A program made the translations under genes and the position numbers. 64,000 nucleotides of DNA from Acidobacteria bacterium Ga0077551 (GTDB lineage: Bacteria > Pseudomonadota > Alphaproteobacteria > Caulobacterales > Hyphomonadaceae): contig LNFC01000014.1 in assembly GCA_001464545.1 (NCBI GenBank), positions 310,001-374,000 on the forward strand. Direction: 5' to 3'. The first letter of the stretch is position 1; each line of letters starts with the position of its first letter. Below are positions 9,116 through 32,652 of the stretch, one piece after another. The notes beneath the pieces were generated by a model. That model had not been told where the DNA came from, searched no databases, and saw nothing but the letters and a program-made list of their open reading frames with translations.

Positions 9116-9169
9116 GGAGAAAGGTATAGGGTGCACCGCCCGGTTTGGGGAGTGCGGCAATGCGACGGG

Positions 9170-14325: not shown

Positions 14326-15210
14326 ATGTCGGCCCGCGTTATCTCGATTGCCAACTCCAAGGGCGGGGTCGGCAAGACCACCACCTGTGTCAGCCTTTCC
14401 GAAGCCTTCGCCGCCGCAGGCATGCGTACGCTGGTGATCGACCTCGATACCCAGGCCAACGCCTCGCTGCTGATCTTCGGCCATGCCGGCGACGAACACC
14501 TGTTCCAGGCGATCAACGACTATGCGACGATCTCTGACTGGCTGCTGGAGAATTTCTTCGCCGGCGAGCAGCGCCGCCTCTCGGAATTCATCGTCACCAA
14601 TGCCAGCGACGTCACGTTCAAGGGCAAGCCCCTGCCGCTGGACCTGATCCCCTCCTCGCCCCGCCTGCGCAAGACGGAACGGGAACTGATCTTCGAACTG
14701 ACCGCCAAGGGCTACGCCATGGAGGCCCTGCAGAACCAGGTCGGCAAGCGCCTGCGCGACGACCTGAACCTGCTGAAGGCCGAATACGACGTCATCCTGT
14801 TCGACTGCCCGCCCGGCATCTCGGTGATGACCGAAACCGTCCTCGCCGCCAGCCACCTGATCATCGTGCCCACCATCCCGGATTTCATGTCGACGCTCGG
14901 CCTCGACCTGTTCACGGGTGACATCATGAAGAATCTGCGCAACCGGGATATCGCCACGCTGCCCGTCGTGCTCGCCACGCGCTTCGACAACACGCCCCAC
15001 CAGCAGGTTGTCCTCGGCGCGATGCGGGATGCGTCGAACGCCAAGGAAACCGAGTTCGCGATGTTCAAGACCATCATCCCGCTGAAGTCCGGTTTCGCCT
15101 CGAACCCGATCGAGCTTGGCCCGGATCCGACCCTGCAGGCCAAATGGCCGGGCGACGCGCTGAACATCATCGAAAGCCTGCTCGTCGAAGTCCGGGAGAA
15201 GCTCGCATGA
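14326..15210 (+). CDS. ParA/MinD-family ATPase (orphan, no ParB next to it)
   Basis: This is a Walker-type ATPase that positions a cargo (DNA, protein cluster or organelle) by forming nucleotide-dependent gradients. The 294-residue product has the deviant Walker A KGGVGKTT at residues 12-19, the A-prime segment LVIDLDTQANASL, and Walker B in VILFDCPPGI. It lacks the N-terminal DNA-binding extension of plasmid ParA proteins. ATG at 14326 with an AGAGAGAAA ribosome-binding site. It is followed by a small partner gene with a four-base overlap. No ParB gene lies beside it and I recognised no parS-like site, so chromosome segregation is unlikely; cargo positioning is more likely. Confidence 0.88.
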   Translation: MSARVISIANSKGGVGKTTTCVSLSEAFAAAGMRTLVIDLDTQANASLLIFGHAGDEHLFQAINDYATISDWLLENFFAGEQRRLSEFIVTNASDVTFKGKPLPLDLIPSSPRLRKTERELIFELTAKGYAMEALQNQVGKRLRDDLNLLKAEYDVILFDCPPGISVMTETVLAASHLIIVPTIPDFMSTLGLDLFTGDIMKNLRNRDIATLPVVLATRFDNTPHQQVVLGAMRDASNAKETEFAMFKTIIPLKSGFASNPIELGPDPTLQAKWPGDALNIIESLLVEVREKLA

Positions 15211-16283: not shown

Positions 16284-16823
16284 TCAGGCGCGGGCTACCT
16301 GCAGTCGCTCGGCAAGCCCGGCATCATTCGCCGGTGCCTCGGCCACATTCCATAGTGCGCGGAACGCCATTCCGGACATCTGCGCCAGGTCCGAGCCTGC
16401 ACCCGTCATCGACAGCTTGCCGTCCTCGAACGCGGCCGACGTCCAGGCTTTCAGCGGCTTGCCTGTCCACACGGCCACGCGGCCGAAGTTCACCTGCTCG
16501 GCAATCTCACCCTGCTCCGGCACGCTGACCACGCGCACGGTCTGGCGCGCCGTCTCGGCGCCGTAAACCTCGGCCACCGCCGCCAGCACATCCGTGCCGC
16601 TCAATTTCGTGAAAATCGCTTCAAAGCCAACGCCCTGCGCCTCGAACTCGGGAAGGCGCGCCAGCATCTCGCGGGCCACTTTCGTGTCAGGGCTGCGCGC
16701 AATCAGCTGCACTTTCAGCGCGTCCGGGTGCTGAGTCGCCCCGGCACTGCGCCCGATCTGGCCAATCACATCCGGGACGGAAGGAACTGCATCAGCTGCG
16801 GCGGATTTGTGCTGGGTCATCAT
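16284..16823 (-). CDS. Hypothetical protein
   Basis: I do not recognise this 179-residue protein. It is soluble-looking with no signal peptide. The middle part is alpha/beta-like (VKVQ-type strands in ALKVQLIARSPDTKVAREML; TVRVVSVPEQGEIAEQV) and it has a single WTGKPLKAW segment. The start at 16823 has a GAGGCAGAC ribosome-binding region. It is the last gene of the minus-strand series headed by the penicillin-binding-protein gene, 89 bases after the membrane-protein gene, and may share a role with them. Confidence 0.65.
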   Translation of the reverse strand: MMTQHKSAAADAVPSVPDVIGQIGRSAGATQHPDALKVQLIARSPDTKVAREMLARLPEFEAQGVGFEAIFTKLSGTDVLAAVAEVYGAETARQTVRVVSVPEQGEIAEQVNFGRVAVWTGKPLKAWTSAAFEDGKLSMTGAGSDLAQMSGMAFRALWNVAEAPANDAGLAERLQVARA

Positions 16824-16912
16824 GTCTGCCTCGCGTCATCCGGGCAGCCCAAGCCTTCTGCGGCCGCCAGCGGTTCACCCCTGACCTTCGGCAGAATCCG
16901 TAAAGAACCTGT

Positions 16913-18841
16913 TTACGAAGTCGCGCCCGGCTCGATGCGCGGCGCGTCAGGTTCTTCCGCCGCCCCCGGCATGTCCGGCACCATCGCCTGCAGCACCATC
17001 TGCTCGAACGCCCCCGGCAGGAACCGGTAAGCCACGAAATTCGAACGGGATTTCGGGAAGTTCAGCGGCAGGGGCGAGGCCGCGACCGGCTCGCGGTCCT
17101 CCTCATACGGCAGCTCAGCTGCTGCGTCAGAGTCCTTCAGCCGCCCGATCAGCGGGCTGCCAACAGCGCCCAGCTGCCGCTCGATGGTCGACGATGACAC
17201 GCTCGCCCGCTTGATGATCTTGCCCGCCTGCCAGGCAATCCGCAGCGTATTGAGGATTTGAGTATCGGCCTCCTTCGCCAGTTCCCCGCTCACCGGCAAG
17301 GCGAGGTAGACCTCATCAAAATGCGTGAACACATAAGGCCGCAGGAAGTTGAAATCCGGATTCTCCTGAATCTCGTGCGCGCCAGTGACCAGCGCGAGTG
17401 GCCGCTCTTTCTCCCCGCGCAGGTCACGCATCATCCGTGAGAAGGCCGCGAACTTTTCCCCCGGCTGGCTCCACAGCGCCGAGAGAAACAGCAGCGCGTC
17501 GATGACGATGGCGAGCCCCAGCGGCAGGGTGTCCTGCCGCCTCAATCCTTGCTGAGCCTCTACCAGCTCCTTGACATCCGTACTCGAAAGATTCTCGCTG
17601 TCTGTCTCTTCCGTACGCGTACCGAGCGCTTCGCGTATCGCATCACGGCGCACCGCCTCTTCGCGCTCAGTTTCGGTCTGCGTCTGCGGCCCGTCGACCA
17701 GACCGCGAACGGGCGTGGCCAGCGTGAACCAGAACCGGTCCAGCGCCTCGCGCGTCGCCTGTGCGCCGGCATAGCTTTCCAGCTGCGAAATCGGCAGCAC
17801 CGGCAGCGCCGCAAGGTCCGCCGCCACGCCATTCAGCTGGCTGGCAATCGTCGTGTTGTAGCACTTGAACTGGGCACCGGTGCCCTCCTCCACGCGCGTC
17901 AGAGAGGGGTTCGCGTACTCGCCCGCCCAAGTGCGCAGATCACCGATATAGTTCTGCACGCTCTGGCTGGTCGCCAGCGCTTCCAGTGTTGCACCTGCCT
18001 TGTTCGCCGCGCCGGCGGCGCTGCGGAACACCTGCTCGCGCTGCGCCGGCGTCACTTCGCTCGCGCCTTTCGCGCCGATCTCGCGCACGTTCTCGATGGA
18101 TGTACGCACAAGATCGGCCTCGCTGCGCACACTTGCGATCTGCGGCGTCAGCGCCATCACCAGCGCGTTGATCTCGCCCGCCCGCGCCGCCAGGTGGCGC
18201 GTGCGCGGCCCGTCGCCGCCGCCGGACACCTCGCCGCACTGATTGCCGCTGCTGCGCTCGATCTCCGACAGCGAGGTGAAGTTGGTGTTCAGTGTCGTCA
18301 GCGTCGCCAGCGTGCCCGCCAGCTGCGTATCCGCGACGGTGATCTCCCGGTCAAACACGGTGAGATAGCGCTCGGCATCGCCCACCGCCTGCGAGCGCGC
18401 TTCCAGCTGCGTCCAGTAAAACGCGAATCCGAAGCTCACCGAGATCAGCAGCGTCACCACATAGGTCAGAACCAGTGACATGCGCGGCCAGAAATTCCTC
18501 CCGGAACGGAACATCTCGCTGACCGAGTAGGCCATGATGATCGTCGTGGCGAAGATGAACAGGAACACGCCCAGCACGCCGAAGAAGCCGAAGCTGTTGT
18601 CGCCGGACTGCAGCACCTGCAGCATGCCCGTATAAGTGCCGATGAACGAGATGGTCACGAACACGGCGAGGCAGAACATCGGGATGGACGCGAAGATCGG
18701 CAGCGCTTTCGCCGCCGCCGCCATCCGGCCCATCTGCCGCGCGGTTGCGTCAATCGCGGCGCCTGCCTGCGAGGCGGCGCTGGGTCCTCCCCCACTGGAT
18801 GAACTGTCTTCGGTGCCGCTGCGTTGCCAGGGAAACTTCAA
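16913..18841 (-). CDS. Four-TM membrane protein coupled to a penicillin-binding protein, unknown family
   Basis: This 642-residue protein has three membrane helices near the N-terminus (about 47-70, 85-110 and 121-146), a long mainly helical segment of about 290 residues with coiled-coil character (DRE, LATLTTLNTNFTSL, VRTSIENVREIG) and two cysteines, a fourth helix at about 440-458 (LPLGLAIVIDALLFLSALW), and a cytosolic C-terminal domain of about 180 residues. The start is a TTG at 18841. It is supported by GGAGG about eight bases upstream and by the TTGA overlap with the upstream gene stop. That tight coupling suggests a complex with the penicillin-binding protein, perhaps as a regulator or scaffold. 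I cannot assign a family. Confidence 0.8.
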   Translation of the reverse strand: MKFPWQRSGTEDSSSSGGGPSAASQAGAAIDATARQMGRMAAAAKALPIFASIPMFCLAVFVTISFIGTYTGMLQVLQSGDNSFGFFGVLGVFLFIFATTIIMAYSVSEMFRSGRNFWPRMSLVLTYVVTLLISVSFGFAFYWTQLEARSQAVGDAERYLTVFDREITVADTQLAGTLATLTTLNTNFTSLSEIERSSGNQCGEVSGGGDGPRTRHLAARAGEINALVMALTPQIASVRSEADLVRTSIENVREIGAKGASEVTPAQREQVFRSAAGAANKAGATLEALATSQSVQNYIGDLRTWAGEYANPSLTRVEEGTGAQFKCYNTTIASQLNGVAADLAALPVLPISQLESYAGAQATREALDRFWFTLATPVRGLVDGPQTQTETEREEAVRRDAIREALGTRTEETDSENLSSTDVKELVEAQQGLRRQDTLPLGLAIVIDALLFLSALWSQPGEKFAAFSRMMRDLRGEKERPLALVTGAHEIQENPDFNFLRPYVFTHFDEVYLALPVSGELAKEADTQILNTLRIAWQAGKIIKRASVSSSTIERQLGAVGSPLIGRLKDSDAAAELPYEEDREPVAASPLPLNFPKSRSNFVAYRFLPGAFEQMVLQAMVPDMPGAAEEPDAPRIEPGATS

Positions 18842-21312
18842 GGTGCATCCTCCAGGAGATCACGTAGCAACACATCGGCGAGCGGCGCCAGAACGCCCCC
18901 GCCCATATCCTTGGTGAAGGCGCCGCGCGGCGAACCGGCGCCCAGCGAGATCACATAGGAATAGGCGCGCCCGTCCGCAAATTCGATCCCGCCCGCGATC
19001 CACAGGTCAGACTCGTCAAACGTGCCCCCTGCCGGACCGGACGAGACAGACCCAGTCTTGGCCACATGCACCGCCACTTCCTTGCGCGCCGCCGCGCACC
19101 AGCTCGACAGCCTCCGCAGCGTGCCATCCCGGGTGTCGCAGATCGGCTGGCTGAGCACCGCGCGCAGGAACTGCGCCTGCGCTTCGCCGATGCCCTCCTT
19201 CAGCGCCAGCGTGGTCCGCGCCGGCGTCTCCAGCCGGAAGGTAAAGTCGCCGCCCGCAACCGGCTCGATCAGCCGGTAGCGCTCCACGAAAAACGGCTGC
19301 GTCACCGCGCGCGTCTCGCCCCGCGCCGCCTGCAGCGTTGCTGCTGCCAGCCAGTGCACCGCGCGCGGCCGCCCGGCAAACCGCCCGAGCGCCAGGTTCG
19401 TCGCCATCGGCGTCTGCCGGTGGCGCTCCGGCAGGTAAAATCCCAGAGTGTCCATCAACTCGATCGTCCGCGCGAGCGTCGTGCCCTCGCCCAGCGCACG
19501 CACAACCGCCGGATTCAGCGACGATCCGAACGCCCGGCTCAGCGTCACCCGCGCCGGTGTCGCGCCCACGTCCGGTGTGGAGCACCGCTGCTGCAGCCCC
19601 GGCATGCACGCATTGCTCACCGTCCGGCCCGCATCGCTCGCCCCGCCTTCTGCCAGCAGCAAAGCCGCCGCCAGCTTTGCCACGGAGCCGACGGAGCGCG
19701 TCTCGAAACTTCGGTCATACGCCCCGCGCCCGAACCCCCGGATCATCGGGCGCGTTTCTCCGTACCCGGAATAGGCCGTCATCGCCGAAGTATTGTAATA
19801 CCGCACGATCCGCCCGTTCTCGTCCGCCGCCGCGATAACCAGCGCCGTGTCGCCTTCCTTGATGCTCAGGCTGCCAAGATCACTGACTACACGCTGCGGC
19901 AGCGCGCCTTTCCGGTAGCGCCCCGTCTTCTCGAGGTCCTCGCCAAGTGTCATCGCCGCCTCGCGGGCCCGCGCGCGGAACTCGGAATTCTTCGCCACGT
20001 CCAGCGTGACTTCCACCTCGCGCACCCTGCCGCGCCAGGGATGCGTGCCCTGCAGGCGCGTCGGTTGGCCCTTCACGGGCGGCGCTTCAACCGCCTTCGT
20101 CGCCTGCGCCGTCGCCAGCGGCGCCAGAAGATCCGTCAGTTCCGCCACCACTTCGCTCTGCAGGTTCGGTGCAAGCTCCTTCGCCAGCCGCATCGGCGCC
20201 AGCAACGGCGCCTCCGCCGTCATGCCATCCCGCCGCAGGATCTCCAGAAACGCTGCGTCCGTATGGCCTACATTCGCCGGCACGCGCAGCTCCGCCAGCC
20301 GCGCCTGCGTGGCCAGCCGCACGCGCTTGTCCTCGATCACGCGTGTCCCGTCCGCGAGGCGTGCCTCATCGCTCGCACACAGCAAAGCGCGCCGCTTGTC
20401 CTCTTCCACGCCGATCAAATCGTACAGGATTTCCGCGCGCCGCTCCTCGCTCGCCGGCCAGGCAATCGGCCGGCGCACCGCCGCCGCCAGCACCAGCTGC
20501 TCCGCCGGGTCCAGCTCCTCGGCGCGCTTTCCGAACAGGAACTGCCCCGCCGCGTAGACGCCGTAGATACTGCCCTGCTCGTCGCCCCCGCCCTGCACCA
20601 GCGGAATGTGCTGCGAGAACCAGCGCTCCAGCCCGCGCGTATCGCCGTCCTTCACGAGGTAGCGGTTGAGCACCGGCGCCTCGCTCAGCTCGTGCAGCTT
20701 GCGCCACATCGGATTGGAATTGCGCGAGTGCATTTTCCACATCGACCGCGCCAGCTGCATCTCGATGGTCGAGCCGCCGCGCTGGCTGACCGGCAGCCGC
20801 GCCAGATGCCCCACATCCACGCCGTAGCGGTTGCGCCACTCGCCCCGGTGGCGATCCTCCGTATACACCACGCAGCGCCAGAAGTACGGCGGCGCCTCCG
20901 CCACCGGCACGGCCTTGTGGTCCGGAGAGGCGCCGAACGGCGTCAGGTCCGTGCGCTCGAACTCGCCGAGGTGATCATTCTCCGTCTCCGGATGCACGAT
21001 GCCGAAATACCGCCCCTCGCTGTCATAGAGCGCCACGGCCTTCGCCCGTTGGTCGGCGAACTGGAACGCGTTCCACCGCGCCTTGCCATTGATCAGAAGG
21101 ACGCCGTTGAGCCAGCCGAACCAGAATAGCGCTCCGAAATACAGCCCGAACGCGATCAGCAGGAACACGCCCACGGTGCGGCGCTGGCCGCCTTTTACAG
21201 CAACAGCCGGCCCCCGCGTCGTCCACCGCGCGAGCCCGATGCCCACCTCGCGCACCGATTCGAAAATCCTCACGAGGAATCGCAACGGCGTCCGCTTTCC
21301 TTCTGGCAGCAA
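18838..21312 (-). CDS. Divergent bifunctional (class A) penicillin-binding protein
   Basis: This is a peptidoglycan glycosyltransferase/transpeptidase of 824 residues. One TM helix lies at about 47-70. The GT51 domain has its first motif degenerate (TEDRHRGEWRNRYGVD, Glu152 kept but without the normal EDxxFxxHxGxD spacing) and the second intact (RGGSTIEMQLARSMW, about 178-192). The transpeptidase domain has Ser543-V-A-Lys546, Ser598-L-Asn600 and Lys752-T-Gly754, so acylation should be possible. Two insertions rich in Ala/Leu separate the domains. The apparent start is a TTG with a weak ribosome-binding site. It is not one of the housekeeping class A proteins I would expect in a standard locus; its neighbours are accessory genes. 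Confidence 0.85.
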   Translation of the reverse strand: MLPEGKRTPLRFLVRIFESVREVGIGLARWTTRGPAVAVKGGQRRTVGVFLLIAFGLYFGALFWFGWLNGVLLINGKARWNAFQFADQRAKAVALYDSEGRYFGIVHPETENDHLGEFERTDLTPFGASPDHKAVPVAEAPPYFWRCVVYTEDRHRGEWRNRYGVDVGHLARLPVSQRGGSTIEMQLARSMWKMHSRNSNPMWRKLHELSEAPVLNRYLVKDGDTRGLERWFSQHIPLVQGGGDEQGSIYGVYAAGQFLFGKRAEELDPAEQLVLAAAVRRPIAWPASEERRAEILYDLIGVEEDKRRALLCASDEARLADGTRVIEDKRVRLATQARLAELRVPANVGHTDAAFLEILRRDGMTAEAPLLAPMRLAKELAPNLQSEVVAELTDLLAPLATAQATKAVEAPPVKGQPTRLQGTHPWRGRVREVEVTLDVAKNSEFRARAREAAMTLGEDLEKTGRYRKGALPQRVVSDLGSLSIKEGDTALVIAAADENGRIVRYYNTSAMTAYSGYGETRPMIRGFGRGAYDRSFETRSVGSVAKLAAALLLAEGGASDAGRTVSNACMPGLQQRCSTPDVGATPARVTLSRAFGSSLNPAVVRALGEGTTLARTIELMDTLGFYLPERHRQTPMATNLALGRFAGRPRAVHWLAAATLQAARGETRAVTQPFFVERYRLIEPVAGGDFTFRLETPARTTLALKEGIGEAQAQFLRAVLSQPICDTRDGTLRRLSSWCAAARKEVAVHVAKTGSVSSGPAGGTFDESDLWIAGGIEFADGRAYSYVISLGAGSPRGAFTKDMGGGVLAPLADVLLRDLLEDAP

Positions 21313-21375
21313 CCCGAAGGGAAACCTTAACGGAGATGAACAGCCTGTGAAGGCGCCGGACGCAGGCCGTAGGCT

Positions 21376-22164
21376 CTAGCGCTCTATCAGCTTCGTCCGC
21401 AGGTCGGCCTGTAGCGCGCTGTCGACCTTCAGCACGTCCACAAGATACCCGTCCAGCGACCCCGCCTTTGCGTTGATCGCACCAAACGCCCGGTCGAGAT
21501 ACTTCAGGTGCACGCCCATGAAAGGGCGGTAGACTTCGGCGGGAAGGTCCTTGCCGATCATCTGGTTGAAATGGGCCGCCGCTTCCGGCAGCCGCTGGTT
21601 CACGCCGACGGCCTCGTTGGTCAGGTCATAGTCCGCCCGCATATCGGCTTCGGACACGCCCAGAATGTGGTGCGTCAGCGCGCACAGGATGCCCGTGCGG
21701 TCCTTGCCCGCTGCGCAGTTCACCAGCCCCGCAGCCTCGCCCGGGGCTTCGGCCAGCTGCACGAACCAGTCACGGAACAGCGCCTGATGGTGCGCCTTGA
21801 AGGGCGCCTTCTCGTAATACTCGGCCATCCACTCGTCGGCGGCTTCTGCGTCGACGGTGACCTGCGTCAGGAACCGCATGTGCGGCGCCTCGCTCTCGCG
21901 CCCGCCATCATGGGTGATCACCACCGGCGGATTGAACCGGCTTTTCTGCTTGTCGCGCTCATCGGGGCGCCGCAGGTCCGCCTGCACATGGATGCCGAGC
22001 GCGTCCATCTTGGCGAGCTCGTCCTCGCTCGCCTCGGCATGGTGGCCTGACCGGTACAGCCGCCCCATCCGCACCCGGCCGCCGAACTGGCTTTCATAGC
22101 CGCCAAAGTCGCGGAAATTGCGGATCGTTTCAAAGGCGAGCAGGCGCGGGCGTTTGTTTGTCAT
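21376..22164 (-). CDS. Tyrosine phosphatase family protein (MptpB/Y_phosphatase3-like)
   Basis: This 262-residue phosphatase has the active-site loop NCAAGKDRTG, with Cys150 and Arg156, and the N-terminal signature NFRDFGGY common to the MptpB-like group that dephosphorylates phosphotyrosine or phosphoinositides. The general-acid region is EYYEKAPF. I start it at the ATG at 22164; an upstream in-frame start would add 21 residues without clear homology. It lies 63 bases upstream of the penicillin-binding-protein gene on the same strand and is divergent from the RyR-domain gene. It could reverse a phosphorylation signal within the island; no kinase gene is nearby. Confidence 0.88.
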   Translation of the reverse strand: MTNKRPRLLAFETIRNFRDFGGYESQFGGRVRMGRLYRSGHHAEASEDELAKMDALGIHVQADLRRPDERDKQKSRFNPPVVITHDGGRESEAPHMRFLTQVTVDAEAADEWMAEYYEKAPFKAHHQALFRDWFVQLAEAPGEAAGLVNCAAGKDRTGILCALTHHILGVSEADMRADYDLTNEAVGVNQRLPEAAAHFNQMIGKDLPAEVYRPFMGVHLKYLDRAFGAINAKAGSLDGYLVDVLKVDSALQADLRTKLIER

Positions 22165-22277
22165 GCCCCGGAGGTAAATCGCACCCGCCCCGCCGTCCAG
22201 TGACAATCCGGTGTCACGCCGGGGCAAGCAGCACCCGCCCCCTTGCCCCCCGCGCGCAATCCCCCGAAACTCTCCCC

Positions 22278-22631
22278 ATGCCTCTTCCGACCGACCATCT
22301 CGACGCTGTCGCCCGCACCGTCCACGAAGCCCTGCGCGGCTGGGCCGCCGCGCACGGCCAGCACGACATCCCCGCCTGGGACGAGGCGCCGGACTGGATG
22401 CACGCCTCCACCCGCGAGAGCGTCCGCCACGCCCTCGAACACCATGCCCCGAACGGGCGTACGCAGCACGACCAGTGGCTCGCCCAGAAGGTCCGCGATG
22501 GCTGGACCTACGGCCCCGTCAAGGACGCCGCCGCCAAGACCCATCCGCTGATGGTGCCTTACGATGATCTCCCCGAATGGGAACGCCGCAAGGACGCCCT
22601 GATCAACGCCCTCGCCCACGCGCTTGCCTGA
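22278..22631 (+). CDS. RyR-domain protein
   Basis: This 117-residue free-standing protein has a C-terminal RyR domain (residues about 62-103): HDQWLAQKVRDGWTYGPVKD, then KTHPLMVPYDDLPEWERRKD. This matches the W...K..DGW.YG...D...K.HP.L.PYD.L pattern seen in ryanodine receptors and in many bacterial conflict genes. RyR domains are proposed to bind nucleotide-derived signals; this is a prediction from comparative genomics. The ATG at 22278 begins the conserved part; the frame is open upstream to 22158. It sits on plus inside a minus-strand island, nine bases from the end of the convergent DUF1353 gene. Confidence 0.85.
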   Translation: MPLPTDHLDAVARTVHEALRGWAAAHGQHDIPAWDEAPDWMHASTRESVRHALEHHAPNGRTQHDQWLAQKVRDGWTYGPVKDAAAKTHPLMVPYDDLPEWERRKDALINALAHALA

Positions 22632-22640
22632 AGCCGTGCC

Positions 22641-23237
22641 TCAGGGGGCCGCCTTCTTCCCGCGCTTCGGCTTGGGCGGTGCCCAGGTGATATCGCCATT
22701 GCCATAGGGCGCCTCGACCGGATCGCCGGATTCTGTGTCGACGAACTTCCAGTCATCCTTCAGCCCATAGCCGCCGCCGCCGAACAGGCGCACCATCCGG
22801 TACATCAGCGAACGCCGGAATCCCGGCACGCCTGCATCCTTCATGGCGTTGAGGAACAGCCGGTCAGCCAGCCGCCGCGCCCTCTTCTGGCCGATCGCAT
22901 AGAGATAGTCATGCAGCACCGCCGCCGGCGCATGCCGCCCGAACGGCTGCACGATGAAATGGAAGATCGACGGGATCGACGCAAAGTCCGTCACGAAGCC
23001 GAGCGGCACTTCCACCGTGACCTCAATCCCGTGGACCGGGTGCACATAGGCATAGGGCCGCGTCACCACCGCCAGCGTGCGCCCCTGCTTCTCCATGTCG
23101 GACAGGATCGCCACCGCAATCAAATGCCGGCGCACCTCGCCCCGCCCCACATGCGTTGCAGCGCGCTTCGCCTGCACGGACTCCAGGCCCGAGGACTCAA
23201 GGTCCGTCACGCGCGGCGACATATCCACGAAAGGCAT
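22641..23237 (-). CDS. DUF1353 protein
   Basis: This 198-residue protein has the DUF1353 pattern: VTVEVPLGFVTDFASIP, then AAVLHDYLYAIGQ, then ADRLFLNAMKDAGVP and a VRLFGGGGYG end. DUF1353 proteins are common in tailed phages and conflict loci; the HD and D residues suggest a small metal-dependent or structural fold, but no activity is established. The ATG at 23237 has a GGGGAG ribosome-binding site. It follows the protease gene by 23 bases, so it is likely in the same transcript as the TIR, muramidase and protease genes. Confidence 0.82.
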   Translation of the reverse strand: MPFVDMSPRVTDLESSGLESVQAKRAATHVGRGEVRRHLIAVAILSDMEKQGRTLAVVTRPYAYVHPVHGIEVTVEVPLGFVTDFASIPSIFHFIVQPFGRHAPAAVLHDYLYAIGQKRARRLADRLFLNAMKDAGVPGFRRSLMYRMVRLFGGGGYGLKDDWKFVDTESGDPVEAPYGNGDITWAPPKPKRGKKAAP

Positions 23238-23260
23238 CGATCACTCCCCTTCAGCGACGC

Positions 23261-25048
23261 CTAAGGCGTGCTCAATCCCTTGGCCAGCCGGAACGCGTTG
23301 AACAGCGGCCGCAGCCAGAGGCCCTGGTTGGCATGATACTGCCCCGGCTGGCCGTTCAACCTCGGCCTTAATCCGCCCGCATGGTGCAGCCCGATCAGCT
23401 CCATCGTCCGGCTGTTGAACACCGGGCTGCCGGAGTTTCCGGGCTCGGTCGGCGCCAGGTAATGCAGGCGCCTCGGCTCGGGACCAGGCACCGTCCCGAC
23501 ACGGACATTTTCGTAGTCCAGCAGCTGGTTGTCGCTCAGGGAAATCGAAAGCTCCCGCCCCAGCGGATACCCGATGACATACACCGTGGTCGGCTTCTCG
23601 ACATACTGGCGCTGCCCGGTCTTGCTCTCCACCTCTTCGCGCTGCTTGAGCTTTGGCAAACCCTCAGCCAGCTTCAGCATGCCGCCAAGGTTGCGCAGAT
23701 CCGGATAGCGCGGGGTATTCTGCCGTATGCGGAATATGGACACATCATGCTCGGTCTTTGGCGAGCTCCACAGAATTTCGTCCAGCGGAAACTCGTCTGT
23801 GAAGTTCGCCGCATCGAACCGCACCCGGCCATCCCCCGGCGCCATCGCTGCCCGGTCCGCAGGATCCGGGGAGACGACATGGGCATTGGTCAGGAACAGG
23901 ACCTCTCCTTTCAAGGAGTCATGCACGCTTTCGCCATTCAGCAGGAAGCCGGTGCCGAACGTCGCATCGCGCGATTGCACCGTGTCCATCATCACCCGCC
24001 CAACCGTGCGGGAGTATTCGATGATCTGTTGCAGGCGCCGGATGCCGTAGGGGCCTTCCTTGCCGAACACTTTCTCGTACTGACCCTGCGCGCCGGCAGC
24101 CGCCTGCGTTCCCACGACATCGGCCGCTTCGACGCTTTCAGGCGGCGCCAGCAACTCACGCGCCTGCACATTGCTCAGCCGGATGGCGCCCTGGTCTGAC
24201 GCCATCAGCGCATAGCGCAGCAGGTTGGTGATCTCCGCCTTGTCCGCGTCGCCCGGCGTGATGCCCCAAACCTGTTCGAACTGACGCAGCGTGCCGTTGA
24301 TCGCAAACGCATCCCCTTGCGCGAGTTCCAGATAGCGCCGGATCTTCTCCTTCGCCTCTTCCCAGCGCCCGAGATGCGCATAGGCCTCCGCCGCCGAGGC
24401 GACGTGCCAGTAGTCCGACTTATTGTCCGGATCCAGACTATTGATGATCTCGTTGGCGATATCGTTCGGCGGCACCGCCAGTGGCAGGAAATACTGCCCG
24501 CGCTGCGCCATCGCCGACAACGCCAGAAGGTTGCCGCCCGGGAAGTAGGCGCCCGCCGAACCCCGCAGCCGCGCAAACGCAAAACCGTAGGCCGCGGCCG
24601 ACTTCTTCAGGAATCCCTCGCACACATCCCGCGCTGCCGGCGGCCGGCGCTGCGAGGCAATCACGTAGAGCTGCTTGTAGACGCGGCCCTCAAGGCTCCA
24701 GCAGTCCGCCTCCGTCACGGCGTCCGCCTCTTCCTGCGCGGCCTTGCGCGCTTCCAGCACCAGCGCCGCCGCCGGGATCAGCGCATTGCGCTCCACCAGT
24801 GCCTGCGCATGGAACTGCAGCAGCCAGCCGCGCCGCACACCGACCGCTTCGAGAAACTGCGTCGCCAGTTCAAGCGCCGTATGCGCCCGCATCGTCCGCA
24901 GCGCCTTCAGCCCCGCACGCAGCTCTTTTGATCCGCCATCCTGCGAGGCGATCACCGCGTCGGCCAGCGCGGCCGCCTTCGCCGCCAGTTCGGCCTCATT
25001 GCCAAGCGCCGCCGCCTGAAGATCACCAAGAGCCTGCGCCAGGGTCAT
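23261..25048 (-). CDS. Trypsin-like protease with N-terminal TRAF-binding-like (TPR-S/DUF4071-type) helical domain
   Basis: This 595-residue protein has two parts. Residues about 1-290 are helical repeats containing CWSLEGRVYKQLYVIAS, an AYFPGGN segment and SDYWHVASAAEAYAHLG. These are the landmarks I associate with the MAP3K TRAF-binding (TPR-S) domain found in bacterial conflict proteins. Residues about 345-560 are a trypsin-like domain with the complete triad His390 (LTNAHVV), Asp435 (EHDVSIFRI) and Ser539 (EPGNSGSP). There is no signal peptide, so it should act in the cytosol. It starts nine bases after the muramidase-fusion gene. It may be a signal-activated effector or processing protease of the island; this is inferred from domain logic. 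Confidence 0.87.
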   Translation of the reverse strand: MTLAQALGDLQAAALGNEAELAAKAAALADAVIASQDGGSKELRAGLKALRTMRAHTALELATQFLEAVGVRRGWLLQFHAQALVERNALIPAAALVLEARKAAQEEADAVTEADCWSLEGRVYKQLYVIASQRRPPAARDVCEGFLKKSAAAYGFAFARLRGSAGAYFPGGNLLALSAMAQRGQYFLPLAVPPNDIANEIINSLDPDNKSDYWHVASAAEAYAHLGRWEEAKEKIRRYLELAQGDAFAINGTLRQFEQVWGITPGDADKAEITNLLRYALMASDQGAIRLSNVQARELLAPPESVEAADVVGTQAAAGAQGQYEKVFGKEGPYGIRRLQQIIEYSRTVGRVMMDTVQSRDATFGTGFLLNGESVHDSLKGEVLFLTNAHVVSPDPADRAAMAPGDGRVRFDAANFTDEFPLDEILWSSPKTEHDVSIFRIRQNTPRYPDLRNLGGMLKLAEGLPKLKQREEVESKTGQRQYVEKPTTVYVIGYPLGRELSISLSDNQLLDYENVRVGTVPGPEPRRLHYLAPTEPGNSGSPVFNSRTMELIGLHHAGGLRPRLNGQPGQYHANQGLWLRPLFNAFRLAKGLSTP

Positions 25049-25057
25049 GTCCCGCTC

Positions 25058-26932
25058 CTAATCCACATAGCCCGCAAAGGGCGAATTTTCGGGCGTGATC
25101 TCTGCCGGCACGGTTTCGAAATCACTGTGCGTCCCGCCTTCGCCTGTCGCTTTTTCCAGATCCGTCACCCGGTTCAGCCAGCCCTTCAGGAACACGCCCT
25201 GGCTCGCATCCCTGGCGACGATCCGGTGGAACAGAGCCCGCCGCTCCACAAGATACTGCGCCGCCAGCGCCTTCGTCTCGTACCGCGCGATCGCCGCAAA
25301 CGTCTGCCCGCCAATCGCGCCGTCTACCTTCAGCGTCTCGCCCAGCGCATTCAGCGCGCGTTGCAGCAGCTTGGCCGCGCCGCCCGGCCCATGGTTCACG
25401 CTGGCATCGAACATCAGGAGGTCCAGCTGCCGCTTCAACCGGTCACACCGCGCCGCCAGCCAGTAGTCCGACCAGTAGATCGCCCGCACCTCGTCATGCG
25501 TGATCTCCTTAACCGGCCGCAGCGGCTCGCCCCGTGAGTCCAGCCATTCATGGAACACCTTCTCGGTGACGCCATAGTTCGTCCTGCCGCCCCGGTCGCT
25601 CGCATGGTCGCTATAGCCGCCTTCCCACTTGAAGCAGAACTGCAGCGCCGTATCGAACCGGTCTGCCGGAGGTGGCGAAGGCGCCGCGGGCACTACGGGC
25701 GGCGCATCCGCTTGTGGCGCCGTCTCGGCTGGCACTAAAGGCTTGGCCGTCTTCGCTGTCTCCGTCTTGCCGCTCATCGTCTTGCGGATCGCGCCCGGCA
25801 AACCGTCCAGCGCGCCGGAATTCCAGGCATCCTTCAGTGTACGGAAGGCCAACCTTGCCAGCGGGCTTTCCAGCACGGACTCGTGATCGCCTGCGCCCTT
25901 CGCCGCCAGGTAAGGCCGCACCGATTCCACCATCTCCGCCGCCTGCTGCTGCAGCCGTTGCCGGTCCGCACGGATCAGGTAGGGCGAAAGCGCCACCACC
26001 CGGCGGAACGCATTCAGCGCCTCGTCCGGTTGCCCGCCGCTCTCCAGAACCCGCTGCAGCGACACCCAGGCATCGCCTACCGCAGGCACGTCCTCGATAT
26101 TCTGATGGCGCTCGGTCGCCGTCACCCGGATCACCGCATAGTCCCGTCCGCGGACGGACTTGCCCTTGATCCGCAGTAGCGGCACGAGCCGTCCGCCGCC
26201 GAAGTCGAGCTCGACCTCGCCATTGGCCTGTCCGTCCGGCAGCATCACATAGTAGCCGGGCTCCAGTTTCAGGCTCGCGGACACCGGCACCCGCAACCGC
26301 GTCGTGTAGGTGCCATCCTGCGCCTTCAGGATTCGCGCGATTTCCACGGCAGCGGTGTAGCCGATCTTCTTCACGAAGGTGCTGGCCAGCTTGCCGGTGA
26401 TGGCGCCCGCCGCCGTCGCGATGAGGCTCTCATGCCCCTCGCCGTCGTCTTCCTCCGGCTCGCCCGGCGGCGGCTGGCCGCCCATCTTCGGCAGCGAAGC
26501 CGACAGCCGGTCGTTGAGGTCCAGTAAGGTCGCCAGCAGCGCTTCCGAGCGCAGCGCCAGCACCACGAATTCCCCGTCGATTCCGCCCTGCCAGGGCATC
26601 TGCGCGCAGATTGAGGTGACCCCCAGGTCCTGGTTGCCGGCATTCTTGGTCTCAATGCCGTCGCGCACCTTGCGCGGGTCGATGAGCGCGCTCTGGCGCA
26701 GCTTCGTCTGCACCTGGGTCGCCACCGACAGGTCCGACAGGAACAGCGCGTGATACTTGCTGGTCAACAGGCCGGGCCGGGCAAGGCCCAGGTCAATCAG
26801 GTCGAGGCTGACATAGGCCGCATCCGACTCGATCGCACCCGCCGGCGCCTCTGCGCCGCTGATCGCCGCCTTGACCCAGCGCGTCGACCGTTTCGGCGCC
26901 CCGAACAAGCCCCCCGTCTTGTTGTCCGCCAT
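25058..26932 (-). CDS. Unknown N-terminal region fused to a GH108 phage-type muramidase with PG-binding domain
   Basis: This 624-residue fusion has an N-terminal part of about 410 residues that I do not recognise (beta-rich; contains VSLDLIDLGLARPGLLTSKY and a Gly-rich stretch LPKMGGQPPPGEPEEDDG). A Pro/Ala linker leads to a C-terminal domain (from about residue 426) typical of glycosyl hydrolase 108: FKWEGGYSDHASDRGGRTNYGVT, with the likely catalytic Glu437 in WEGG. It ends with a PG_binding_3-like segment (LKVDGAIGGQTFAAI). No signal peptide is visible. The ATG at 26932 has GGAG eight bases upstream; a GTG at 26941 is the alternative. It sits between the TIR-WD40 and protease genes in the same direction. 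Confidence 0.85.
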   Translation of the reverse strand: MADNKTGGLFGAPKRSTRWVKAAISGAEAPAGAIESDAAYVSLDLIDLGLARPGLLTSKYHALFLSDLSVATQVQTKLRQSALIDPRKVRDGIETKNAGNQDLGVTSICAQMPWQGGIDGEFVVLALRSEALLATLLDLNDRLSASLPKMGGQPPPGEPEEDDGEGHESLIATAAGAITGKLASTFVKKIGYTAAVEIARILKAQDGTYTTRLRVPVSASLKLEPGYYVMLPDGQANGEVELDFGGGRLVPLLRIKGKSVRGRDYAVIRVTATERHQNIEDVPAVGDAWVSLQRVLESGGQPDEALNAFRRVVALSPYLIRADRQRLQQQAAEMVESVRPYLAAKGAGDHESVLESPLARLAFRTLKDAWNSGALDGLPGAIRKTMSGKTETAKTAKPLVPAETAPQADAPPVVPAAPSPPPADRFDTALQFCFKWEGGYSDHASDRGGRTNYGVTEKVFHEWLDSRGEPLRPVKEITHDEVRAIYWSDYWLAARCDRLKRQLDLLMFDASVNHGPGGAAKLLQRALNALGETLKVDGAIGGQTFAAIARYETKALAAQYLVERRALFHRIVARDASQGVFLKGWLNRVTDLEKATGEGGTHSDFETVPAEITPENSPFAGYVD

Positions 26933-27038
26933 GGCTCCCACTCCGGCTCAATGTACGAGTAAACGTTATGTTAAACAGGAATTTATGGGAAGCGGGGGAA
27001 GTGTGTCGGCCCTGCGACAGCGCCCATCACGGACCCGT

Positions 27039-30000
27039 TCACCGGAACGCCCAGCCAAACACCGCCCCCGCCGCCGTCTCCCACCACGCCGCCGGCGGCG
27101 GTATACAAACATCCCCCCCCTCCCGCCCCCGCAGGATCGGCGCGCGGAACACGCCGGTTGCATCCAGCGTCCGCACAAACGCCGCACCCTCGGGCCCGGG
27201 ACTGCCCGTGCCGCGCAGCTTCGATGCACAAGCAGCCGCAATCCGCTCCGGTGAAGCGTCCGTCTCGGAGGCAAACCCTGTATCCCAGACCCTCACCTCG
27301 CCATCGTGGCTGTGCGACAGCACCTGCGCTCCATCCGCCGTCCAGAAATGTCCCGGCGCCGTATTCGAAAGCTCCCAACGCGCCACAAGGTCTCCCGTCA
27401 CCGTATCCAGAATACGGAACGTGCCCATTGCCTCGGCGGCGAGCAGCCGGCGCCCGTCGGCGGAAAACTGGACCTCCTGATCGAGGATTCCGATCTCGGC
27501 CGGATTGCCGATGCGCCGCCCCGTGGCGGTGTTCCAGAGGTGCATCTGCCCGTCATCCCCCCAGGTCACGGCCAGTCGTCCGTCTGCGGACAGGCTGCCC
27601 GAGCGGGCTTCCGTCCCGCTCGCAAATTCCGGCCCGGCCGGCTCGCCGTTCGCCGTGTCGTAGACGCGCGAGAAGCCCAGATAAATCGCCAGTGCCCGCG
27701 ACCCATCTGCCGAGATCGCCGCCGAGTAAGGGCCGCCGCCATCCACCACAGGCCCCGCCAGCAACCCGCCCGACTGACCATCCCAGATACGCAGCTCATC
27801 GCTGGACCAGGTTACAAGCCTCGTTGCGTCCGCTGAGAACGCGGCGCCACTCAAAGCAGGGTCTTCCTGGTCCGGATCATTGATGAGCGCATGAGTCATT
27901 TCGCCGGATACCGTTTGCCCGGTTGCCAGATCGACCAATTCGGCGGTCAGCCCGCGCCAAACCAGCATCCGCGCTCCATCCGGGCTCACCGGCGGAATCC
28001 TGCTGGTCTCGAACAGGCGCGGGGCGCCCACCGCCTCACCGGTCGCCGGATCCCACACCTGCACACCTTGATCCGTATCCTGAGTGACGAACCGCGTTCC
28101 GGCAGAATTGAACATCGCATCCCGCACCGGAACACCGGCATCGATCAGCCCCTCTTCCGCCTCGCCAGTCTCGAGGTTGATCATCTGCACGGACGCTTCA
28201 TACCAGATCGCCATCCGCTTGCCGCTCGGGTCGAACGCAAGACCGGACTTGTGAAACTCCCCCATCAGGATTTCGCGGCCATAAACATCGCCAGTCCGGG
28301 CACGCCTCAGCTCCGCCCGCCCCGACGCACTGACCGCCACCTGATACCCGCCGCCCGGCGACAGGTACGAGCGCGCGACCGGTGTGCCGTCCACCAGCGT
28401 CCGCGCTCCGGCAACACCATGGTCCCGCGCCGTCCATATCCACGCGCGGTCTTCATGCGCGGTCAGAATCTTTGTGCCGTCCTCGGAATATCCCGTGCCC
28501 GCGCCGATCAGCATCGCTGGCCAGGGTCCACCAATCGGATAGCCCGTAAGCATATCCCACTGCCGAACCTGCGCTTCCGATGAATATGTCAGGAAGGACC
28601 TGCCATCCGGGCTCACCACCACGTCTTGAATGAAGCCTGGGTGCTCGTCGAGAAACTGCACCGGATCGCCGCCGCTGCCGTCAGCCGGGACCGACAGGAT
28701 CCTGCGCCCATCCCAGGCTATCAGGAAATTGCTTCCCGGCACGAACCGGACACCATCATACGCCGTCGCCTCTCCGTCAGCATCGGCAGCGGCAGGGCCG
28801 GTCATCTGGGCGCCGGTTTCGAGGCTCCAGGCCGCCACCCCTCCAAGGTATGAGCGCGTCAGGAACAAGCCAGATTCCGCCGACACGTGTTCCGGCGACA
28901 ACCGGTCGGCAGTCTTCACCGGCGCGCCAATCCTTTCAAAGCTGGTCGCCGCGTAGAGATGGAGGTTTCCGGCCGAGTCCCAGAACAAAATCCGGTCACG
29001 GGTCGGAACGAAGACAGCCGCACTCAGATAGTCCGTATGCCCCGTCAATTCGGCCATTAGCGCGCCGGTCGTCATGTCGAACACCTGCGCCATGCCCGGC
29101 TCTGCATCCGCAATGACAAAGCGCCCATCCGGCGACAGGTGCACTGCATCCTGCGTACTCGCCGCTTCGGGATCGACGAGGTCGGTCAGGCTTTGCGCGG
29201 CTGCGCCGCCGGCCCCGCTCCACAGCCTGTAAGTGCGTGCCTCCCGCGTCGAAATCACCGCGCCGCCCAGCTCAAACCGGGCTCCCCGAACCGGCGTTTC
29301 TGCCTCCAGCGTGAAGCGCCGCTCGCCGCTGGCTGTATCGTAAACGCTGATTGTCTGCTCCGCCGCGTCGCGCAGCAGGATCGCCCCGCCATCCGGCGAA
29401 ATGTCCGCAATACTCAATCCCGCCGGCAGCCCTTCGGCCGGGCGCGCAACCTCGCGCGCGGTCCCTTCGGCCGCATCGATCAGATAGGCCATGCTGGACC
29501 AGACCACGAGCGCCCGCTGCCGACCGGCATCCACGTGGATCCCCGGCGGACTCCAGACGCCCGCATCAATCGGCGCCACCAGCTGCGCGCCGTCCACAGC
29601 GTCCCAGAGCGAGACGCGGCCATAATGGTCCAGCACCAGCAGCCGCGTATCCTCTGCCAGCGGTACCAGGCCCGCAATCATCGCAGGTGTTCCGTTCGGT
29701 TGCGTCACGATGTCGATCGCCGACACGAGCCGCAGCGCCTGCGCGGCCTTCGCAAACGCTGCCTTGGCCTCGTCCGAAGTTGGCGACAGGAAACTGCTTC
29801 GTGAGGCGAGGATCGCCATCTGCAAGGCGCGCAAGTGATCGCCTTCGTTGGAAAACTGGTCCGACGTCCGCGCCAGCATCAAGCTCTCGCTCCGCCCAAG
29901 GTTCCGCTGCCCGTTGATCACGAACCAGGCTCCGGCCATCGTCGCCACCAAGGTCGTCAGCACAAAGACGGCTGTCACCCGCCGCCAGAAAGCGCGCACC

Positions 30001-30674
30001 GAAGCATCGCGCCTGATCTGCGCGCGCGAGGCTGCGATCCAGGCCAGGAACAGCTCGCCCGGTTCCGGCTCGCCCCTTGGCCGCATCACGGCCCAGCGCT
30101 CGGCCTCTTCCACGGCGCCCTCGCGCAGCAGCCGGCTCTTCGGTCGCCCGGCCGTATCCCACTCCTGCACCCGCGCAAAATACTTGCGCCCGTCCCGGTG
30201 CCAGCCGACATTCGCTTCCAGCGCGGACACCAGCCCGGCGAGCGCCGCCTCAAACCCCGGACCACTGTCCGAAAAATCGATCCGTACATTCAGCGCCGAA
30301 AGCCTTGGCGGCGCCTTTGCAAAATCCACCGGCCGCGCGAGGACCGCAATGATCCGCTTGCCCAGCGCGCGGGCGTAGGCGATTTCCTCGTCGCACACGG
30401 CGCTCTGGGCTGAATCCGGCGAGACCAGGAACACCATCACGTCGGCCGACGCGATCATCTCCTGCAGCCGTTTCCACCACTCGTCCTCGGCTGAAATTCC
30501 CGCGCTGACATTCCCGGGGTCGTGGGCCGCCTGGTCAAAGTCGGCGAGGAACCCCGCCGTCATCAACCCGTCCGCCACGCGCTGCACCTGCGCCGCGTCC
30601 TTGCGCGAATAGCTCAGAAAGACGCGCGTGCGCGCATCTTCCGTCCCGGGCTGACTGTCCACCTGTCCCACCAC
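27039..30674 (-). CDS. TIR-TM-WD40 protein
   Basis: This 1211-residue protein begins with a TIR domain (residues about 16-150): VFLSYSRKD, DEWWKRLQEMIASADVMVFLVSP, and CDEEIAYA, where the acidic pair Glu96/97 is positioned like the catalytic Glu of NAD-cleaving TIR domains. One TM helix at about 232-253 follows. The rest (about 330-1190) is beta-propeller repeats with many LSPDGRF/VSPDGR/FSADGRRLL strands, enough for about two propellers. The start is a GTG at 30674 with GGAGGAG just upstream. Such membrane-anchored TIR-WD40 proteins are likely sensors whose TIR domain makes a signal or depletes NAD. It heads the minus-strand series of the island. Confidence 0.9.
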   Translation of the reverse strand: MVGQVDSQPGTEDARTRVFLSYSRKDAAQVQRVADGLMTAGFLADFDQAAHDPGNVSAGISAEDEWWKRLQEMIASADVMVFLVSPDSAQSAVCDEEIAYARALGKRIIAVLARPVDFAKAPPRLSALNVRIDFSDSGPGFEAALAGLVSALEANVGWHRDGRKYFARVQEWDTAGRPKSRLLREGAVEEAERWAVMRPRGEPEPGELFLAWIAASRAQIRRDASVRAFWRRVTAVFVLTTLVATMAGAWFVINGQRNLGRSESLMLARTSDQFSNEGDHLRALQMAILASRSSFLSPTSDEAKAAFAKAAQALRLVSAIDIVTQPNGTPAMIAGLVPLAEDTRLLVLDHYGRVSLWDAVDGAQLVAPIDAGVWSPPGIHVDAGRQRALVVWSSMAYLIDAAEGTAREVARPAEGLPAGLSIADISPDGGAILLRDAAEQTISVYDTASGERRFTLEAETPVRGARFELGGAVISTREARTYRLWSGAGGAAAQSLTDLVDPEAASTQDAVHLSPDGRFVIADAEPGMAQVFDMTTGALMAELTGHTDYLSAAVFVPTRDRILFWDSAGNLHLYAATSFERIGAPVKTADRLSPEHVSAESGLFLTRSYLGGVAAWSLETGAQMTGPAAADADGEATAYDGVRFVPGSNFLIAWDGRRILSVPADGSGGDPVQFLDEHPGFIQDVVVSPDGRSFLTYSSEAQVRQWDMLTGYPIGGPWPAMLIGAGTGYSEDGTKILTAHEDRAWIWTARDHGVAGARTLVDGTPVARSYLSPGGGYQVAVSASGRAELRRARTGDVYGREILMGEFHKSGLAFDPSGKRMAIWYEASVQMINLETGEAEEGLIDAGVPVRDAMFNSAGTRFVTQDTDQGVQVWDPATGEAVGAPRLFETSRIPPVSPDGARMLVWRGLTAELVDLATGQTVSGEMTHALINDPDQEDPALSGAAFSADATRLVTWSSDELRIWDGQSGGLLAGPVVDGGGPYSAAISADGSRALAIYLGFSRVYDTANGEPAGPEFASGTEARSGSLSADGRLAVTWGDDGQMHLWNTATGRRIGNPAEIGILDQEVQFSADGRRLLAAEAMGTFRILDTVTGDLVARWELSNTAPGHFWTADGAQVLSHSHDGEVRVWDTGFASETDASPERIAAACASKLRGTGSPGPEGAAFVRTLDATGVFRAPILRGREGGDVCIPPPAAWWETAAGAVFGWAFR

Positions 30675-32273: not shown

Positions 32274-32652
32274 AGGCATGTGGCAGAAGCTCGCTCAGCC
32301 GGTAACGTGCCTCCGCACCTTCCGCCGTGAAGCACAAAACGTCGAGGTCGCTGCCGAATTCCGCCAGCACCTGACGGCAGATGCCGCAGGGGGTGCCGGG
32401 GTCTGCGCCGTTGGTCACTACGGCGATCGCCCGGAACTCCGTGTACCCCTGCGCGACGGCGGCGAACACGGCGTTGCGTTCGGCGCAGCAGGTCGCCCCG
32501 TAGGTGGCATTCTCGACATTGCATCCGGCGATAATCTCGCCGCCCACCGTCAGCAGCGCGGCCCCGACCCTGTAGCTGGAGTACGGAACATAGGCGCGGG
32601 CCTGTACGTCCAGTGCGGCAGCTTTAAGAGCGGGCCAGTCGACCGCGCTCAC
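32260..32652 (-). CDS. cdd: Cytidine deaminase
   Basis: This enzyme deaminates cytidine and deoxycytidine to uridine forms in pyrimidine salvage. The 130-residue product is of standard length for the tetrameric class with Cys56-A-Glu58 (CCAERNA) and Cys89/Cys92 (PCGICRQ) forming the zinc site and catalytic glutamate. Its ATG overlaps the AMP nucleosidase stop codon by four bases, so purine and pyrimidine salvage genes are coupled here. It is convergent with the cytochrome b gene. Confidence 0.95.
   Translation of the reverse strand: MSAVDWPALKAAALDVQARAYVPYSSYRVGAALLTVGGEIIAGCNVENATYGATCCAERNAVFAAVAQGYTEFRAIAVVTNGADPGTPCGICRQVLAEFGSDLDVLCFTAEGAEARYRLSELLPHAFKLK

Follow-up and report, generated by a model that had tools for sequence, protein, structure and literature searches.

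A TIR-WD40, muramidase, protease and DUF1353 cassette with a convergent RyR gene in Hyphomonas: a candidate signal-gated lysis system

Introduction

Conflict systems that pair TIR proteins with TPR-S domains (Pfam PF20308; the ASK1 regulatory region) and use a signal derived from nicotinamide adenine dinucleotide (NAD) were reportedly predicted by Burroughs and Aravind in 2020. In Thoeris, the TIR protein makes 2'/3'cADPR, a cyclic ADP-ribose, and ThsA is the effector. Here, we analyzed a 64,000-nucleotide stretch of Hyphomonas DNA (the window; contig LNFC01000014.1 of assembly GCA_001464545.1, positions 310,001 to 374,000), in which five genes at 22278-30674 form a cassette encoding a TIR-WD40 protein with a transmembrane (TM) segment, a GH108 muramidase behind an N-terminal domain (NTD), a TPR-S/V8-like protease, a DUF1353 protein and a convergently encoded RyR-domain protein. 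Judging from sequence comparison, we put at about even the chance that this cassette serves as an abortive conflict system, with self-lysis gated by a signal.

Several of its parts have described relatives. RyDEP, a phage RyR-domain glycosidase and sponge, cleaves 2'/3'cADPR; six of eight homologues tested bound the signal and none besides RyDEP degraded it (PMC13232231). TtaP, a member of the DUF1353 family, is a phospholipase A2 with catalytic residues H70, D71 and D85 (PMC11525133). Protease-activated proenzymes have precedent in other defence systems (PMC12799240), and peptidoglycan-attacking effectors have already been suggested for NucA-trypsin conflict systems (Kaur 2020, PMC7159879).

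Results

A five-gene cassette at a variable spot of the Hyphomonas genome

Nine open reading frames (ORFs) were found where a first-pass annotation, made from the sequence alone, had placed them (Table 1). That annotation read all nine as one island. Comparison with Hyphomonas genus mates instead separates three units, namely the cassette, a core phosphatase gene, and a module of a class A penicillin-binding protein (PBP), a 642-amino acid (aa) protein and a 179-aa protein. A single nine-gene system is ruled out, as the phosphatase persists in cassette-free genomes and the second module is kept or lost independently.

A protease search of 61 genomes, 37 of them from the genus and including the window's own, gave matches in eight, seven from the genus and one, weak, from the same order (G and L numbers denote genomes and their contigs or loci). 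In G014, G018, G021 and G024, the TIR, protease, DUF1353, RyR and phosphatase genes were collinear between AMP nucleosidase/cytidine deaminase and ParA. The G022 copy was degenerate and at a contig end; on its contig L014 (15006-19225), TIR-WD40 matched over a short piece only and the effector had no tail domains, resembling a disarmed copy. G444, a later addition to the sample, also carried the cassette (L087), as the only one of six linked loci compared; the cassette survey left out G442, G443 and G445. G011 (AMP nucleosidase at 98%) had no cassette and retained both flanks and the phosphatase, and in G016 and G031 the phosphatase adjoined cytidine deaminase. Since it was retained without the cassette in these three genomes and in G010 and G441, we regard the phosphatase as a core gene.

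The second module lies on the far side of the phosphatase. PBP and 642-aa genes occurred together in the window, G014, G018 and G021; in G024, G444 and G011 the PBP gene was reduced to a short 5' remnant. Near-full-length 642-aa genes were found in four of 61 genomes, all four cassette-bearing, with two further distant partial matches, and no PBP relative was found adjoining the 642-aa relatives in G060 and G056. Presence in four of the six genomes that carry the cassette here versus none of 31 other genus genomes gave a Fisher p of 2e-4, which overstates the association because the genomes are not independent by descent and the cassette-free G011 retains a PBP remnant. Relatives of the 179-aa gene adjoined the 642-aa gene in G021 and G014.

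The same spot in G010 (L088, 3314-12699) and G441 (L089, 2942-9130) held caspase-FGE, caspase-OmpA, caspase-MORN and trypsin genes, the caspases scoring weakly in PADLOC. The AMP nucleosidase-ParA locus is thus a variable spot for protease-type conflict genes, which supports the conflict-system reading of the first-pass annotation. A HEPN plus nucleotidyltransferase gene, toxin-antitoxin-like, adjoins the locus in G021 (L012, 1038-2006). Contigs L040 (G024) and L057 (G022) are labelled Candidatus Sulfopaludibacter, yet AMP nucleosidase places them with Hyphomonas at 96-99% identity, so that the label is probably wrong.

Pfam assigned seven of the nine ORFs, in agreement with the first-pass families: TIR_2 plus WD40, Glyco_hydro_108 plus PG_binding_3, Trypsin_2, DUF1353, RyR, Y_phosphatase3 and Transgly; the 642-aa and 179-aa proteins had no Pfam match. 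A hydropathy scan gave one TM segment for the TIR-WD40 protein and four for the 642-aa protein, also as first described. The tight one-strand spacing noted in the first-pass annotation holds for gaps of 97, 9, 23 and 9 bp between the TIR, GH108, protease, DUF1353 and RyR genes in turn and for a 4-bp overlap of the PBP and 642-aa genes, with the exception that RyR is on the plus strand. Between 21300 and 31700, a sigma-70 promoter scan found none and terminator-like sites numbered five versus 6.4 in shuffles; Rfam and tRNA scans of the window gave no matches.

The TPR-S protease and its linked wall enzymes

The protease matched Trypsin_2 (1.8e-17), and its catalytic triad was present in 45 of 45 alignment rows. 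Profile searches retrieved V8-type glutamyl endopeptidases and ASK1 (5ulm, 1.2e-4). Foldseek with an AlphaFold2 model built from the 45-row alignment (predicted local distance difference test, pLDDT, 85.5) returned TPR proteins at E ~5e-4, ASK1 (5ulm_B) ranking fourth at 5.0e-4, with TM-scores of 0.2-0.5, so that this result gives the fold class only. In related proteases, PF20308 scored 35.6 bits (L016), 53.1 bits (L038) and 39 bits (L039). Every row with a letter at the position agreed at L50, G121, R122, K125, Y154, N173, W214, F248 and R255. The polar residues R122, K125, Y154, N173, W214 and R255 (at least 38 of 45 rows) are predicted to line a nucleotide pocket, because invariant polar residues are unusual for plain TPR packing. 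Thr534 and His555/556 were found in 45 of 45 rows and resemble what we take to be the Glu-specific pocket of V8 protease, hence cleavage after Glu is predicted. Two predicted conflict systems meet at L069 (8569-13545), where a TPR-S-protease gene is followed directly by one for a trypsin-NucA protein, with a TIR gene in the vicinity.

The muramidase belongs to GH108, with Glyco_hydro_108 at 4.9e-25 (88.3 bits, cut-off 21.2) and PG_binding_3 at 5.9e-16 (58.9 bits, cut-off 24.6); the NCBIfam holin-associated N-acetylmuramidase model scored 73.7 bits, under its cut-off of 240. In G027, a 1261-aa fusion comprised N-domain, GH108, TPR-S and protease, adjoined by RyR and a TIR-TM protein, on a different contig from AMP nucleosidase. 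G014, G018, G021 and G444 encoded an alternative effector of 1413-1427 aa, with N-domain, TPR-S, protease, a domain with an HxGL..SAGC motif and PG_binding_1. The motif, read by eye, may be LD-transpeptidase-like, but neither Pfam nor a PDB profile search bears this out; in the latter, the peptidoglycan-binding tail alone matched. Fusion in G027 and swapping on the same polypeptide in four Hyphomonas tie a wall enzyme to the protease, and with the adjacency of the genes they uphold the earlier proposal that protease and muramidase belong together.

The NTD recurred in longer fusions of relatives and in L016. Its homologues were rare, found in two genomes (its own and G412) of an even draw of 385 from the class, and models for TIR, RyR, GH108, DUF1353, protease and the swapped domain had no match around the G412 homologue. 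The AlphaFold2 model of NTD-GH108 (mean pLDDT 45, eight rows) was not used for fold searches because of its pLDDT. A hidden alpha/beta-hydrolase in the NTD was considered and rejected, as the alpha/beta-hydrolase profile had no match in 12 effector-set proteins.

DUF1353 and a putative lipase slot

DUF1353 matched at 4.2e-27, and H109, D110 and D125 were invariant in seven of seven Hyphomonas rows. Compared with the His-Asp plus Asp of TtaP, the residues are kept and the last spacing is 16 versus 15; the window protein is predicted to be a phospholipase A2. The first-pass annotation took protease and muramidase as the effectors and missed DUF1353 as a reported phospholipase A2 family (PMC11525133); the reading therefore shifts to a kit for lysis of membrane plus wall. 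Among viral contigs, four stretches matched the DUF1353 pattern, none a relative; by tblastn, 212 phage records matched, none over 80% of the query, and the profile had no match among PDB sequences.

At L094, a protease gene is followed by a patatin phospholipase gene in the place of DUF1353. Alpha/beta-hydrolase genes, whose Pfam match is below the cut-off and whose lipase activity we infer, were never found together with DUF1353 (0 of 47 loci, below). One lipase slot may thus be filled by up to three unrelated folds, DUF1353, alpha/beta-hydrolase and patatin.

Recurrence beyond Hyphomonas

Nine protease rows, including seven Hyphomonas ones, were used to scan a genome contig collection (84,980 species), giving 47 loci whose neighbors were called by local hidden Markov models. 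TIR was within 5 kb at 17 loci, with RyR at 8, GH108 at 17, the swapped domain at 4, DUF1353 at 6 and alpha/beta-hydrolase at 28; by slot, a wall enzyme was present at 21, a lipase at 34 and both at 16. Removal of the seven Hyphomonas loci and of L085, a query seed, leaves 39, with GH108 at 14, TIR within 5 kb at 11, RyR at two, alpha/beta-hydrolase at 28 and DUF1353 at none. The 39 genomes behind 40 loci outside the genus held 24 GH108 matches, of which 15 adjoin the protease, versus ~0.02 expected under uniform placement; in 12 of these 15 genomes, it was the only GH108 match. Recurrence of the gene set in order elsewhere, together with this adjacency, indicates linkage beyond chance. The first-pass annotation had named failure to co-occur as its own refutation; the cassette genes do recur together.

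On a Sinorhizobium plasmid, the protease is flanked on one strand by GH108, a 312-aa hypothetical protein in the hydrolase position and TIR-STAND; another TIR gene lies ~4 kb upstream, and a DUF6531 gene adjoins the TIR/GH108/protease set. On a conjugative Agrobacterium plasmid, a 313-aa protein precedes the protease and no TIR or GH108 is named within 6 kb.

A predicted membrane sensor with hypervariable WD40

The TIR-WD40 protein matched TIR_2 at 2.7e-16. Its single TM segment follows the TIR domain and is preceded by an Arg-rich sequence, so that by the positive-inside rule the TIR is probably cytosolic and the WD40 periplasmic. The Glu of VCDEEIA, which we take to be the catalytic Glu of TIR, was conserved in six of six aligned Hyphomonas TIR-WD40 proteins. 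Identity to five Hyphomonas relatives was 86-95% in the TIR domain versus 31-37% in WD40, and in G024 the N-domain and protease were 93-95% identical and the WD40 different. PADLOC matched ThsB at 2.3e-6 over the TIR only, and NCBIfam ThcB4 scored 24.3 bits versus a cut-off of 220, both weak. A second TIR protein was encoded between sensor and effector in G014, G022 and G444 (L063, L057, L058; one cluster). The one scanned, on L087 of G444 (8971-10053, minus strand), is TIR-TM-OmpA and may be a peptidoglycan-anchored TIR.

A convergent RyR of the phage type

The RyR protein matched PF02026 at 1.2e-11 (45.1 bits, cut-off 27.4). Its H64, W67, H89 and D106 are spaced 0, +3, +25 and +42, as are H75, W78, H100 and D117 of RyDEP, and the HWHD ligand residues were found in 50 of 53 viral RyR rows. 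The proposal that it is of a nucleotide-signal-binding type is thereby strengthened (PMC13232231). RyRs of the Hyphomonas cassettes and L094 grouped together (97/77) beside phage RyRs (94/79), with modest support given 108 columns and a midpoint root. Matches were found in 285 of 50,697 phage records and in seven of the 385 class genomes. In the window and at six further genus loci, the RyR gene and the last effector gene end 9-31 bp apart; in L094, where RyR is also convergent, the distance is 5 bp.

Three of the six RyR genomes other than the window's have related neighbors: at L097 RyR is convergent with TIR-WD40, at L098 it is in a TPR-S fusion, and at L094 it lies near protease and patatin; in the remaining three, none of the five families looked for was found. 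The L097 gene (7556-11872) is TrkA_N-RyR and channel-like, and RyR may be a receptor of the TIR signal there. At L098 (6967-13536), one protein combines RyR, TPR-S and a cyclase-like region; another RyR gene and a DUF4062/NB-ARC gene lie close by.

Other features of the window

Outside the cassette, the PBP matched Transgly at 5.2e-16, with SxxK at 543, SxN at 598 and KTG at 752.

Table 1. Cassette genes, second module and core flanks in the window
Feature	Position	Strand	Remarks
TIR-TM-WD40, 1211 aa	27039..30674	-	TIR ~18-148, TM 235-253, large beta-propeller region; predicted to act as sensor and to make the signal
NTD + GH108 muramidase + PG_binding_3	25058..26941	-	NTD ~1-410, without known family; GH108 and PG_binding_3 434-592
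TPR-S + V8/trypsin-like serine protease, 595 aa	23261..25048	-	Triad H390, D435, S539
DUF1353, predicted phospholipase A2	22641..23237	-	H109, D110, D125
RyR-domain protein, 117 aa	22278..22631	+	Convergent with operon; H64, W67, H89, D106
Y_phosphatase3	21376..22227	-	Pfam; core flanking gene, outside cassette
Class A PBP	18838..21312	-	Second module; TM 47-65, GT51, SVAK/SLN/KTG
642-aa protein	16913..18841	-	Second module; four TM segments (hydropathy scan)
179-aa protein	16284..16823	-	Second module; no family
AMP nucleosidase	32649..34109	-	Core flank of variable spot; match in 42/42 genus genomes
Cytidine deaminase	32260-32652		Core flank of variable spot, with AMP nucleosidase
ParA-like ATPase	14326..15210	+	Core flank, other side; match in 42/42 genus genomes (in G032, only a weak one listed)

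Discussion

Gene content, order, active-site residues, recurrence, fusion, slot swapping and sensor hypervariability are observed. From these we infer the biochemical steps of a self-lysis system and the topology, as follows. An envelope event such as phage entry would be sensed by the WD40 propeller on the periplasmic side of the membrane-spanning TIR protein, upon which the cytosolic TIR would turn NAD into an ADP-ribose-type signal, perhaps 2'/3'cADPR. Binding of this signal by the ASK1-like TPR-S, through its invariant Arg, Lys, Tyr, Asn and Trp residues, would activate the fused V8-like protease, which could then release or activate both the DUF1353 phospholipase A2 and the muramidase, GH108 being held to the N-domain by a Pro/Ala-rich linker. 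The lipase would open the membrane and give the muramidase access to the wall, causing lysis in a protease-gated analogue of holin plus endolysin. The convergently encoded RyR would bind or cleave the signal, setting a threshold or ending the alarm.

More tentatively, and with somewhat greater doubt than confidence, we suggest that these loci draw on an interchangeable, TIR-signalled and protease-gated kit, comprising a sensor (TIR-WD40, TIR-STAND-WD40 or TIR-OmpA), a protease with an ASK1-like nucleotide receptor, a lipase (DUF1353, alpha/beta-hydrolase or patatin), a wall component (GH108 or a different peptidoglycan-bound domain) and a chromosomal, host-encoded signal remover related to phage RyDEP.

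A number of observations weigh against signal-gated self-lysis as laid out here. TPR-S in the window protease itself scored 4.9e-5 (24.3 bits), under the Pfam cut-off of 27.6, and Foldseek placed other TPRs above ASK1, LGN/Gpsm2 first. GH108, protease and DUF1353 lacked TM segments in the hydropathy scan and a holin was not identified, which makes access of the muramidase to the wall itself conjectural; for the swapped domain, Pfam gave PG_binding_1 only and no YkuD match. PADLOC gave weak partial matches only on ten window proteins. Since six of eight tested RyDEP homologues bound the signal and none besides RyDEP degraded it, the window RyR need not be an enzyme, and outside Hyphomonas RyR lies within 5 kb at only two of the 39 loci. 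The TPR-S-protease also keeps other company, given that by local models eight of 47 loci had neither lipase nor wall enzyme and 30 of 47 had no TIR within 5 kb (L040 just beyond), absences that are soft because the protease is near the contig end in some cases. In the neighborhood of L038, neither tblastn with window genes nor Pfam on five ORFs detected TIR, GH108 or RyR, and at L094 the protease had no TPR-S match and no TIR was found.

The RyR could alternatively be a receptor and not a sink, reading the TIR signal and regulating its neighbors, in which case TPR-S would sense a different cue or act as a scaffold. The L097 and L098 genes show that effectors can contain RyR, and most tested phage homologues bind without cleaving (six of eight; none cleaved besides RyDEP; PMC13232231); the cassette RyR, however, is a lone domain of the phage RyDEP type with no partner domain and is encoded outside the effector operon, and we consider a receptor role unlikely. 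More improbable still is envelope maintenance, that is, stress-regulated remodelling of peptidoglycan and lipid by PBP, muramidase and lipase and not immunity. The nearby class A PBP with its motifs, the four-TM gene that tracks the cassette (4/6 versus 0/31) and the second TIR protein of three relatives, TIR-OmpA in the one scanned, would fit such a role. Against it, the protease matched in just seven of 37 genus genomes, WD40 is hypervariable, effectors are swapped, caspase genes take the same spot elsewhere, and G024 and G444 lost the PBP module and kept the cassette.

A release module, exporting cargo by controlled lysis or leakage, seems very improbable to us. The typhoid toxin islet brings muramidase and DUF1353 lipase together (PMC11525133) and a DUF6531 gene adjoins the Sinorhizobium plasmid set, but no candidate cargo gene consistently accompanied the cassette across the Hyphomonas loci compared and the authors of the TtaP study did not find a secretion phenotype for it (PMC11525133). 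If signal-gated self-lysis is correct, NAD-derived immune signalling would be linked to lysis by enzymes otherwise used by phages, and the cassette would indicate what TPR-S domains may control. RyR domains, phage-serving in PMC13232231, would gain a host-side role. A shared, old nucleotide-signal ancestry of animal RyR and ASK1 would become testable, the domains co-occurring here and being fused in L098.

A search of open-licence literature found no description of TPR-S, nor of a phage-defence set of TIR, muramidase, trypsin and phospholipase. As far as searched, a wall enzyme plus lipase under a TPR-S protease and a host RyR of phage-evasion type in a TIR cassette are new. The cassette RyR resembles RyDEP in being full-length, with all four ligand residues, and in grouping beside phage RyRs; it differs in being host-encoded inside a TIR cassette, where RyDEP is phage-encoded. 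Like the typhoid toxin islet with TtsA and TtaP, the cassette places a phage-type muramidase beside a DUF1353 lipase (PMC11525133), whereas it lacks toxin subunits and adds TIR, TPR-S protease and RyR. Hachiman/Avs nuclease-protease pairs likewise set a trypsin-like protease beside a possible proenzyme hydrolase, in a module taken up by different sensors (PMC12799240); here, wall and membrane enzymes are present and Pfam found no metallo-beta-lactamase nuclease in the nine proteins. With NucA-trypsin systems the cassette shares a trypsin-like protease as activator, and Pfam found no NucA nuclease in the nine window proteins, although a NucA-trypsin gene does adjoin the related protease at L069. 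Like Thoeris, the cassette has a TIR domain, matched here only weakly by ThsB models, and its RyR belongs to a type of which members bind the Thoeris signals; unlike Thoeris, the cassette has a protease-gated lysis kit, and PADLOC gave no ThsA match in ten window proteins. With the TIR/TPR-S systems the cassette shares a TIR gene beside a TPR-S-linked effector, here upstream on the same strand, and an ASK1-like TPR. The linkage of the effector protease with a muramidase and a putative phospholipase, the RyR and the membrane WD40 sensor may set the cassette apart from those systems, whose description may already list some of these. The first-pass annotation knew of no named family for these genes, but the class already has a name in part, TIR/TPR-S conflict systems having reportedly been predicted in 2020. 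By the features tested, the cassette appears to be neither Thoeris, nor NucA-trypsin, nor a nuclease-protease pair, and is best read as a putative lysis-kit variant of the predicted TIR/TPR-S systems.

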